DNA of 64,000 nucleotides from Eublepharis macularius. Lineage: Eukaryota > Chordata > Lepidosauria > Squamata > Eublepharidae. This document shows, piece by piece, positions 5,965 through 57,733 of this stretch. The notes below the pieces were generated by a model. That model had not been told where the DNA came from. It worked only from the letters and a program-made list of their open reading frames with translations, and ran no database searches. The stretch's first letter is position 1. Each line of letters begins with the position of its first letter. The position numbers and the translations under genes were made by a program. The stretch lies in NCBI RefSeq assembly GCF_028583425.1, contig NC_072793.1, forward strand, positions 172,957,681 to 173,021,680, given 5' to 3'.

Positions 5965-6460
5965 GTAAAGGGTGGGGAGTGTCACTGGGGAGACATGCAG
6001 CAGAGGGCAGAAATAGTTCCTTCTCTGTCGCAAAGCTCAGAGGACTGGGCTGTTTTCCCTTGGCTCTGGTCATAGCCTGTCTGGGATTCCATGTGCAGAG
6101 AAGCCCCTACAGGGACAATAAAACAATATTGGTTACCAACCTCAAGGCGGGGCCTAGAGGCAAGCATTCAGAAATTCAGATTCTGTGGGCGATCCGGGAG
6201 ACAATATTAGGCTATGATTTTTCTAGTGATCCAGAATCCAGATGTTGCCCAGCCCAGAACTGCTAACAGCCTGCAGACTTCAGCAGAGTCTCATCAACAC
6301 CTGGCCCTCCTACCAGCCAAATGTCAACATACTCCCATGTGCTCAAATGCTCCTCTCTCTGGAAGGGCCTTCCTCTCAGAGGTTGCACACACTGTTCACA
6401 TCCATGCTGGGATAGAGCAAAGGGAACCCATGCATGTGGCAGGCTGGTAGCCCCTTATGA

Positions 6461-6778
<318 letters not shown>

Positions 6779-8692: not shown

Positions 8693-9745
<1,053 letters not shown>

Positions 9746-24343: not shown

Positions 24344-25559
<1,216 letters not shown>

Positions 25560-33164: not shown

Positions 33165-33291
33165 GTTCCAGTGTCCTTTGAAGCGGTGGCTGTGCGTTTC
33201 ACCCGGGGGGAATGGACCCTGCTGCACCCATCCCAGAGAGCTCTCTACAAGGAAGTCATGCTGGAGAATTTTTGGAACGTGGCCTCCCTGG
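33165..33291 (+). CDS. Unit D KRAB-A box exon
   Basis: A 127-nt exon between TTTTTCCAG and TGG|GTGAGG. It encodes [26 protein letters not shown] and N-V-A-S-L, leaving phase 1. M-L-E, needed in the family for TRIM28 contact, is present; the first E of E-E-W is G. It joins in phase to the KRAB-B exon at 34479. This is the most standard KRAB in the window, so the gene is probably a TRIM28-dependent repressor acting on chromatin. Confidence 0.92.
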
Positions 33292-36418: not shown

Positions 36419-37974
36419 AAGGAGGCATATGGGAATCATCAAATGAAAGGAAACAACATCCAGTGCTGGAGGAAGAGGATCCGTACGCAGTTGAGAAAGA
36501 GGCGGTCAAATATAGTGGTGCCCTGAGGAAGGAGGAGGGAGAACGTCCATACAAACGGAGGAATAAAGCTGGTCTCTTACTGAGGAGTAACTCTCTGCTG
36601 CAAGAAGGATATGAAGGACAGAATAGGGATGCGCGTCCTGCAAAAGGCAGAAAGTTTCCTAAAAACTCAGATATTAATATTCAAGGGAAAACCTGTAACA
36701 GAAAACAAATGTCTAAGTCTCTAAAGTGTGAGATGATGTTTGGGCAGAAAAATAGGCTAATGTGCCATCAAAGAATTCACCCTGGGGAGAAGCCGCATAA
36801 ATACATGGAGAGTGGAAAAAACGTTAGATTGAGACATAACCTTACTTTCCATGAGAGAATTCACACCGGAGTGAAACCATATAAATGCCTGGAGTGCGGA
36901 GAGAGCTTCAGTTACAGTAGCATCCTTACTGTCCATCAAAGAATTCATACAGGGGAAAAACGGTATACATGCCTGGAGTGTGGAAAAAGCTTCAGTCGCA
37001 ATGGAACCCTTACTGTCCATCAGAAAACTCACACAGGGGAGAAACCATATAAATGCCTGGAGTGCGGAAAGAGCTTCAGTTACAGTAGCATCCTTACTGT
37101 CCATCAAAGAATTCATACAGGGGAAAAACCGTATAAATGCCTGGAGTGTGGGAAAAGCTTCAGCTACAGTGGAAACCTTACTCTCCACCGGAAAAGTCAC
37201 ACAGGGGAGAAACCATATAAATGCCTGGAGTGTGGAAAAAGCTTCAAAAACAGTGGTAGCCTTATTCTCCATCACAGAATTCACACAGGGGAGAAACCGT
37301 ATAAATGCCTGGAGTGTGGAAAAAGCTTCAGTTGCTGTGGAAACCTTACTGTCCATCACAGAATTCACACAGGGGAGAAACCATATAAATGCCTGGAATG
37401 TGGAAAAAGCTTCAAGGAACGTGGGAAACTTACTGTCCATCAAAAAATTCACACAGGGGAAAAACCACATGGATGCTTAGAATGTGGAAAAAGTTTTAAG
37501 AGAAATAGTCACCTTATTATCCATCAAAGACTTCACACAGGGGAGAAACCATATAAATGCCTGGAGTGTGGAAAAAGCTTCACGGAGAGTGGAAGCTTGA
37601 AATCCCACCAAAGAATTCACACAGGGGAAAAAAAATATAAATGCCAGGAGTGTGGAAACAGCTTCAGGCAGAGTTCACACCTTACATCTCATCAAAAGAT
37701 TCACACTGGTGAGAAAAAATATAACTGCCTGGAGTGTGGAAAAAGCTTTAGACTGAGAAGTAACCTTACTTCCCATGAAAGAATTCACACAGACGAGAAA
37801 CCATATAAATGCCAGGAGTGTGGGAAAAGCTTTAAATTGAGACAAACCCTTGCTGTGCATGTAAGAATTCACACAGGTGAGAAACCATATAAATGCCTGG
37901 AGTGTGGAAGAAGCTTTGGTCGGAGAGACGTCCTTGCTTCCCATCAAAGAATTCACTTAAGGCAGAAACCATAG
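36419..37974 (+). CDS. Unit D C2H2 zinc-finger exon (13 good fingers)
   Basis: Acceptor TCTCTTTTTTCAG at 36418; the exon joins in phase 1. With the upstream exons the product is 596 codons. About 110 residues of charged linker ([10 protein letters not shown]) come first. Two degenerate fingers follow, near 36725 and 36800, lacking one and both cysteines. Then come 13 complete C2H2 fingers with H-T-G-E-K-P-Y-K-C linkers. Helix residues -1,2,3,6 in order are YSIV, RGTV, YSIV, YGNL, NGSL, CGNV, EGKV, RSHI, EGSS, QSHS, LSNS, LQTV, RDVS. Fingers 1 and 3 are identical. The TAG stop sits where the linker Y codon is expected, and a relic finger follows. Fingers bind DNA through these helices, so the protein should be a nuclear sequence-specific repressor. 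I do not recognise a named orthologue. Confidence 0.95.
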
Positions 37975-50573: not shown

Positions 50574-52457
50574 GCGTCTCCTCTGCATGCATTCTGCGGT
50601 GGGCAGTAAAATGGGAGCTCCACATGAAACTCTTTCCACACTTCAGGCATTTATATGGTTTCTCTCCTGTATGGAATCTCTGATGTGATGAAAGGTCTGT
50701 GCTCCTTCCAAAGCTCTTTCCACACTCCAGGCATTTAAAGGGTCTTTCTCCAGTGTGGATTCTTTGATGCCTAGTAAGAACTTTGCTCCACCTGAAGCGC
50801 TTTCCACATTCCAAGCATTTAAAAGGTTTCTCCCCTGTGTGGATCCTTTCATGAGAATTAAGGCGTGTACTATTGCTGAAGCTTTTCCCGCACTGAATGC
50901 ATTTGTATGGCTTGTCCCCTGAGTGGATTCTCTGATGTAAATTGAGGTTTGAGTTCTGACTGAAGCTCATTCCACACTCCAAGCATTTAAATGGTTTCTC
51001 CCCAGTGTGCATTCTTCGATGTGAAGTCAGGCTGGAGCTCACACTGAAGCTCTTCCCACACTCTAGACATTTATAGGGTTTCTCCCCTGTGTGGATCCTC
51101 TTATGTCTAATAAAGCTTGGGCTCTGACTAAAGCTCATTCCACATTCCAAGCATTTAAATGGTTTCTCTGGCTTGTGAATTCTTTCATGTGAACTAAGGT
51201 ACGTTCTGTGGCTGAAGCTCTCGCCACATTCCAGGCATTTGTATGGCTTGTCCCCAGAGTGGCTTCTCTGATGCGAAGTAAGGACTGAGCTGTGACTAAA
51301 GCTCTTCCCACACTCTTGGCATTTATATGGCTTGTCCCCAGAGTGATTTCTCTGATGAGAAGTGAGAGCTGAACTGTGACTGAAGCTCATTCCACATTCT
51401 TGACATTTGTATGGTTTCTCCCCTGTATGCACTCTCTGATGTGAAGTAAGATGTTCACTCCGACTAAAACATTTTCCACACTCCAGGCATTTATATGGTT
51501 TTTCACCTGTGTGTATCCGTTGGTGTGAACGAAGGCTTGCATTATCACGGCAGCTTGTCCCACACTCCAAGCATTTATATGGTTTCTCTCCTGTGTGGAT
51601 TCTTTGATGTCTGCTAAGAGTTGCACTGTAAGCAAAGCTCTTCCCACACTCAAGACATTTATATGGTTTCTCCCCTGTGTGAGTTCTCTGATGTGAATGA
51701 AGATTTGTACTATCACTGAAGCTTTTTCCACATTCCAGGCATTTATATGGTTTCTCTCCTGTGTGGATTCTTTGATGTCTACTGAGGCTTGTGCTATCAC
51801 TGAAGCCTTTTCCACACTCTTGGCATTTATATGGTTTCTCTCCTGTATGGATTCTTTGATGTGTAGTAAGACTTGCACTGTAAGGAAAACTCTTTCCACA
51901 CACTAAGCAGTGAAAAGGTTTCTCACCTGTGTGGATTCTTTGATGGGAACTAAGGCTGGTGCTATCACTGAAGCTCTTTCCACACTCCAGGCATTTATAG
52001 GGTTTCTCCCCTCTGTGAATTCTTTGATGTGTAGAAAGAGTTGTGCTCCGGCTGAAGCTCTTTCCACACTCCAAGCATTTATAGGGTTTCTCTCCTGTGT
52101 GGATTCTTTGATGCAAAGTGAGGCTTCGGCTGTCACTGAAGCTTTTTCCACATTCCAAGCATTTATATGGTTTCTCTGCAGTGTGGATTTTGAAATGCAT
52201 ATTAAGGTTTGATTTAGAACTGAATGTCTTCCCACACACCAGGCACTCAATTCTTGTTTCTTTGCAATTGTCCTGTCGGACTGATATCCGATCTGCCTGG
52301 GCATCATTATCGCAGTCAACAATATCCCAATTTTGGGCCTGGCTTTTCTCCTGGTCCCTTAATTCCTCTGGATTCCCAGGTTCTCCTCCTTCCATCTTGA
52401 TCACTTCCAATGAAGCCTCAGGCAGTGCTCCGCAGTCTTCACTGTCTTGTCTGTCAG
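50569..52457 (-). CDS. Unit E C2H2 zinc-finger exon (20 fingers)
   Basis: The minus-strand acceptor CTGTTTATTGTAG lies just above 52457, and the exon joins in phase 1 to 54783. The full product is 675 codons. About 65 residues of acidic linker ([13 protein letters not shown]) come first, then 20 complete C2H2 fingers up to the stop at 50569. Helix residues -1,2,3,6 in order are SSNM, DRSL, RTTT, DTSS, YAST, DTSR, DTNS, YATR, DASS, REHS, HSAS, HSVS, HTYS, QPSR, VSSS, QSNL, NTRS, WKVR, RTDS, WSHA. Finger 9 has C for the core F; fingers 14 and 20 have F for the core L. Three linkers read H-S-G-D-K-P. It should be a nuclear DNA-binding protein. No named orthologue is recognised. Confidence 0.95.
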
Positions 52458-54782: not shown

Positions 54783-54906
54783 CAAGAGAGGACGTGTTCC
54801 CAGCGTTTCCCACTGCATTCCTGCAAAGAGTGTTTCGGCTAAAATCTGGCAGAACCGGCCGTCTGTTGGCAAAATGCTCAGCTGCCTCTTCAAAGATCGC
54901 CAGCCT
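54783..54906 (-). CDS. Unit E strongly diverged KRAB-A-like exon
   Basis: A 124-nt exon on the minus strand, from acceptor TTAATTCCCTAG to donor TTG|GTAAGG. It enters phase 0 from the M-D-P-A-Q leader and leaves phase 1 into the finger exon. The 41 residues align with KRAB-A from its start (A-I-F-E-E-A-A-E-H-F beside [10 protein letters not shown]) to its end (N-T-S-S-L beside N-V-A-S-L). But the E-E-W core is R-R-P, and M-L-E-N-F is replaced by G-N-A-G. One codon is missing compared with the usual 127 nt. TRIM28 binding is therefore unlikely. The frame is open throughout and both splice sites look good. It could be a decayed but still spliced domain, or one with a new role. Confidence 0.7.
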
Positions 54907-57650: not shown

Positions 57651-57733
57651 CTGAGCAGGATCCATAGTAGCCCTTTCCACTCCGCCCCAAAGACGAACGA
57701 ATCTGGATGGGGAATCCAGCGCTCTTCCAGGGC
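57651..57733 (-). CDS. Unit E leader coding exon (M-D-P-A-Q)
   Basis: On the minus strand: acceptor TTGTTTTCCTTGCCAG, start codon at 57665, and donor CAG|GTAAGG beyond 57651. It encodes M-D-P-A-Q in phase 0, the same leader type as units A, B and D. The 68-nt untranslated part does not obviously align with theirs. The start is supported by the leader pattern and by continuous phase across all three exons of unit E. Confidence 0.85.

Follow-up and report, generated by a model that had tools for sequence, protein, structure and literature searches.

The DNA analyzed here is a window of 64,000 nucleotides (C4:172957681-173021680) within the 2.24-Gb genome of Eublepharis macularius. Its minus strand harbors a zinc-finger gene, here called W, in which the position of a KRAB-A domain is occupied by an open exon of strongly altered sequence. 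This raises the question of why such an exon is still in frame and flanked by splice sites, and of what the gene product might do with it. Loss of KRAB by degeneration has been called a recurrent theme in mammalian C2H2 genes (PMC2443715), and degenerate, isolated KRAB sequences with stop codons have been described (PMC2865497). W and its paralogue P, described below, were unreported in the open-licence literature that was searched.

Architecture and descent of the KRAB-A-derived exon

The order of leader, KRAB-A and finger exon is recognizable in W, and all predicted splice sites and phases are present (Table 1). The exon is preceded by AG at 54908-54907 and followed by GT at 54782-54781 (donor GTAAGG), and its translation is RLAIFEEAAEHFANRRPVLPDFSRNTLCRNAVGNAGNTSSL with one extra base. 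The joined frame comprises 675 amino acids with a single terminal stop and 20 C2H2 fingers, in agreement with the original prediction of a frame open through exon and fingers. Among the loci compared, the leader pattern was matched only in the window.

Table 1. Features of gene W, in window coordinates
Feature	Position	Strand	Remarks
Leader exon	57651..57733	-	putative 5' boundary, following ttgccAG (57735-57734)
Coding part of leader, ATGGATCCTGCTCAG (MDPAQ)	57651..57665	-	phase 0 at donor, then GT
KRAB-A-derived exon	54783..54906	-	124 nt, open; phase 0 in, phase 1 out
Linker, start of finger exon	52246..52457	-	in-frame ATG ahead of finger 1
Finger array, 20 C2H2 fingers and stop codon	50569..52245	-	open frame; compared with P by dN/dS

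An nhmmer model built from 14 distinct intact KRAB-A exons of the same genome scored the W exon at 34.3 bits (E 2.3e-9). Forty dinucleotide-shuffled windows reached at most 9.5 bits, so chance similarity was rejected, and intact rows scored 114.1-167.9 bits, which marks the W exon as strongly diverged. Judged by this similarity, the exon is a true KRAB-A relative by descent; the spliceable but diverged KRAB-lineage exon that had been predicted was thus recovered. At the protein level, Pfam KRAB (PF01352) did not match the W exon, read in its correct frame, at a threshold as lax as E <= 10, whereas the P exon reached 17.0 bits, under the cut-off of 20.4, and the intact domain of locus L030 67.5 bits. 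A genome search with the W exon DNA returned the exon itself as its sole match. The KRAB search of the genome scored 150 of 837 candidates, and those listed lie almost all on C4, at about 161-187 Mb. The window contains four KRAB-A matches, of which three are on the plus strand. On its minus strand, nothing above noise was seen that could serve W as a second, intact KRAB-A exon. About 120 bases upstream of the W exon lies a dispersed repeat (55080-55024, minus strand), the first 50-70 bases of which match at least 39 other places on several contigs.

The intact KRAB-A exons of the cluster (31 rows, two places duplicated, hence 29 distinct places) all measure 127 nt by model boundaries, the length that had been expected of them. 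One of them, at L006, has an acceptor reading CG instead of AG. Further observations concern the plus strand of the window. Intact KRAB-A exons are located at 24416-24542 and 33165-33291, and a single finger array (36886-37974) follows downstream in the window; one of the two may be an orphan or alternative KRAB exon. At 8696-9577, eight fingers are spread over two frames, one of which contains a stop, with an intact KRAB-A ahead at 6617; this array is probably a decaying gene.

Paralogue P and the residues required for silencing

Elsewhere in the genome, the linker DNA of W matches a single place, on the same strand at C4:173055277-173055491 (locus L029). The gene found there, P, was thus located through linker similarity and not via its KRAB exon. 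P possesses a leader reading MQPAQ, a KRAB-like exon of 124 nt and 15 fingers in an open joined frame of 544 amino acids. Its leader region is identical to that of W at 88 of 123 bases, with ATG and donor retained as ATGCAACCTGCTCAG followed by GT. The exon is open and diverged, scores 74.3 bits on the nucleotide KRAB-A model and ends in REVKLEDYGNMASL-like C-terminal letters. The claim that the exon is kept usable is supported by P, as frame and splice sites are retained in this diverged paralogue as well. An open array of 26 fingers (L033, 184-2293, plus strand) stands behind the intact KRAB-A of L009; it lies on the other strand, in the interval separating W from P.

P is also the place closest to W by its fingers, with 87% identity over query residues 1-282 of 283, compared with 76% for the next-best match (137 of 4030 candidates scored). 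A twin with the fingers of W and an intact KRAB was not apparent among the same 137 scored candidates. In fingers 1-9, W and P have 30 of 36 base-contacting residues in common; past these the arrays differ in finger number and content. The two KRAB-like exons share 11 residues, none of which is new relative to intact exons. Eight nucleotide positions are derived in both, with the identical base in four; this is close to chance and leaves undecided whether the decay of W and P has a shared ancestry.

Twelve KRAB residues needed for silencing have been listed (PMC9753469). They were placed on the exons via alignment to chain 7z36_D, with tolerated substitutions being the analyst's choice. Among the 29 distinct intact exons, 25 harbor all twelve and four harbor 11, whereas W keeps only three (three to four across 29 gap placements) and P five. 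W contains Arg in place of Glu17, Pro in place of Trp18, Glu in place of Ile11 and Pro in place of Leu21, and the same study reports that no replacement of Glu17 is tolerated. The predicted loss of most residues for TRIM28-dependent silencing therefore holds, and canonical TRIM28 binding by W appears very unlikely from its residues. Compared with a standard TRIM28-recruiting KRAB zinc-finger protein, W shows the exon order and selection on the fingers, but neither a Pfam KRAB match nor the set of twelve residues.

Selection on the fingers and retention of the exon

The fingers of W and P are strongly conserved. By the NG86 method, dN/dS is 0.08 at a dS of 0.89 for fingers 1-10 and 0.10 for all aligned fingers, while the linker gives 0.47, with nearly equal values before the ATG of W (first 20 codons, 0.48) and in the rest (0.46). 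Neutral evolution of the whole gene is thus not observed. For the KRAB exon the corresponding values are 0.76 between W and P, 1.22 between W and the intact exon of L001 and 0.49 between P and L001. The first 13 exon codons alone give 0.37 (W-P) and 0.34 (W-L001), which counts against a neutral reading but is based on only 8-9 synonymous sites.

A codon branch model was calculated with 16 of 32 sequences (13 of the 29 intact exons, L030, W and P). It yielded an omega of 0.27 for the background, 1.15 for W and 0.82 for P. The W value is indistinguishable from 1 (2dlnL 0.08) but differs from the background (7.83), and the same applies to P (0.16 and 4.18). Substitution in both exons fits neutrality, and purifying selection of background strength is rejected for both. 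In the omega profile of W, 0.3 is excluded (2dlnL 7.52) and both 0.5 (3.1) and 4 (1.36) are allowed; for P, 2dlnL is 3.83 at 0.3 and 4.62 at 2.5. Power is therefore limited, with values down to about 0.5 for W and about 0.3 for P near or inside the 95% range. When W and P were constrained as sisters, omega was 2.47 for W (2dlnL 2.54 against 1) and 1.00 for P, in a run in which the root fell elsewhere and the W-P stem was not separated. Restriction to 19 unambiguous codons left no power for W (2dlnL 0.01 and 0.03) and gave 2.26 for P against the background.

The alignment of the exon itself also has to be considered. Relative to the consensus, W aligns in frame as well as with free gaps when the gap cost is at either of its two higher settings, and nearly as well at 3.5; for P the free-gap alignment is better by 0.6 to 5.7 units at all four gap costs. 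Since frame-shifting alignments are as good for W or better for P, it is uncertain which codons are homologous in the central part of the exon, and the reading of substitution as about neutral leans in part on this region. P may have passed through compensated frameshifts, which would support a period without constraint on its residues.

The exon frame has nevertheless been kept, and loss of the exon would be costly for the reading frame. As the start codon is in the leader and the exon is entered in phase 0 and left in phase 1, skipping shifts the frame, and translation would terminate 23 codons (W) or 24 codons (P) later. The exon would thus be a coding bridge between leader and fingers that the gene cannot do without. 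The stops, frameshifts and lost splice sites that characterize pseudogenes are absent from the joined frames of W and P. Neutral decay was simulated from intact exons with the branch-model lengths and indel/substitution ratios of 0.03-0.15. Frame, openness and AG/GT were all kept in 0.5-0.9% of the runs for W, a figure biased by the choice of W for its open frame, and in 1.2-2.0% for P, which is the fairer figure because P was not selected for its exon. Joint retention amounts to 6e-5 to 1.8e-4 on the assumption that both are independent. When indels were left out of the simulations, complete retention was more frequent, at about 3% (d 0.6) and 6% (d 0.45) of the runs, which weakens the argument.

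The linker search that started from P led to L030, L031 and two more distant places, of which the first two were analyzed. L031 provides a natural control. Its KRAB-A (4950-4805, minus strand) scores 86.0 bits and is nearer to the consensus than that of P or W, yet it is broken, since it is not in frame and a TGA occupies the EEW position; its array has ten fingers of canonical pattern, then a stop. L030 contains a SCAN exon (6130-6705, minus strand; Pfam 128.6 bits) and the intact KRAB-A mentioned above (5266-5141, minus strand), and is a putative SCAN-KRAB gene of the same cluster.

Possible functions of the exon and comparison with known systems

The data are explained best, and with moderate confidence, if W and P form a pair of KRAB zinc-finger lineage in which recruitment of TRIM28 has been lost and the exon is held as an in-frame bridge. 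W is likely to belong to a well-known gene family and to have been disarmed. Selection maintains the finger arrays of both genes, as shown by dN/dS, and, in a reading that fits the data, appears to preserve the splicing and frame of the exon but to let its residues drift. The product is expected to be a DNA-binding protein without a TRIM28 effector of its own that acts by occupying sites. One consequence might be that W and P act as decoys, with the fingers selected, the silencing domain discarded and the exon only a translational bridge, so that sites are shielded from TRIM28 silencing by their relatives. This is a speculative and rather improbable extension; if it is true, W and P hold or shield sites that are often transposon-derived.

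The most serious competitor, though an unlikely one, is that the exon is a dead relic and that the fingers are produced from a different start site, either the linker ATG of W or a promoter or ATG in the second intron, the open frame being due to luck and recency. The neutral-like residues would be expected in this case, as would the hints at compensated frameshifts in the free-gap alignment of P. W carries an in-frame ATG before finger 1, and the finger frame of P is open upstream of its acceptor and runs through ATGs, so that finger-only isoforms are possible. However, two diverged copies retain the leader start codon, the donor and acceptor sites and an open, in-frame exon, and such retention is rare in the neutral simulations. 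The first ATG of the spliced finger exon of P does not occur before finger 4, and the linker ahead of the ATG of W is constrained to the same degree as the part behind it. A refutation of the original prediction had been named in advance, namely a neutrally evolving exon with stops while the fingers stay conserved; neutral-like substitution with conserved fingers was indeed found, but stops were not.

Two other readings, both with a role for the exon in protein binding, are less probable still. The original prediction considered that another partner might be bound, and human variant KRAB domains with TRIM28-free interactomes do exist (PMC6745500, PMC10547255). The omega of W in the sister-constrained run would leave room for positive selection, but it is indistinguishable from 1. 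Human variant KRAB domains, by comparison, are reported to have median dn/ds values below 0.3 if old and below 1 if younger (PMC6745500), whereas background-strength purifying selection is rejected here and W and P have no novel residue in common. A rebuilt interaction surface is hence improbable, and this part of the prediction was not upheld. Residual, weak recruitment of TRIM28 must be judged highly improbable. It could be modelled on PEG3, where exon 7, with only a C-terminal KRAB-A-like motif of nine residues, is reported to co-precipitate KAP1 (PMC5127583), and the C-terminal letters of P are REVKLEDYGNMASL-like; the four replacements in W, above all that of Glu17, stand against it.

If the coding-bridge explanation is correct, the phase of an exon alone can preserve it after its protein sequence has ceased to matter, and Pfam-based annotation would overlook such KRAB-lineage genes. 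In this pair, conservation of the fingers, architecture of the exons and sequence of the effector come apart, although they are normally coupled. Conserved fingers without an effector allow the roles of zinc-finger proteins without TRIM28 to be tested.

Several known systems resemble W in part. Its intact KRAB-A neighbours are alike in exon position, phases and splice sites, but differ by their length of 127 nt, 11-12 of 12 silencing residues and the background omega of 0.27. Variant-KRAB proteins (vKZFPs, PMC6745500) share a KRAB-A far from the consensus in front of conserved fingers, with TRIM28 binding lost or expected to be lost. Their variant domains are reported to be under purifying selection, whereas the exon residues of W and P fit neutrality; W thus shows the strong divergence of this class but, within the limited power, not the selection on the variant KRAB. 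Exon 7 of PEG3 (PMC5127583) is likewise internal and small; it derives from KRAB-A, is hard to recognize as such and belongs to a KRAB cluster gene. Its motif is conserved among mammals and a reported KAP1 binder, whereas W and P show no conserved novelty. A further parallel is described for dog LOC488318 (PMC2443715), where an exon at the KRAB position is present in the gene structure and its protein sequence is unrecognizable. That exon is reported to share more than 82% nucleotide similarity with its orthologues, whereas the W exon has only 56-60% nucleotide identity to the intact consensus and yet is open and in frame.
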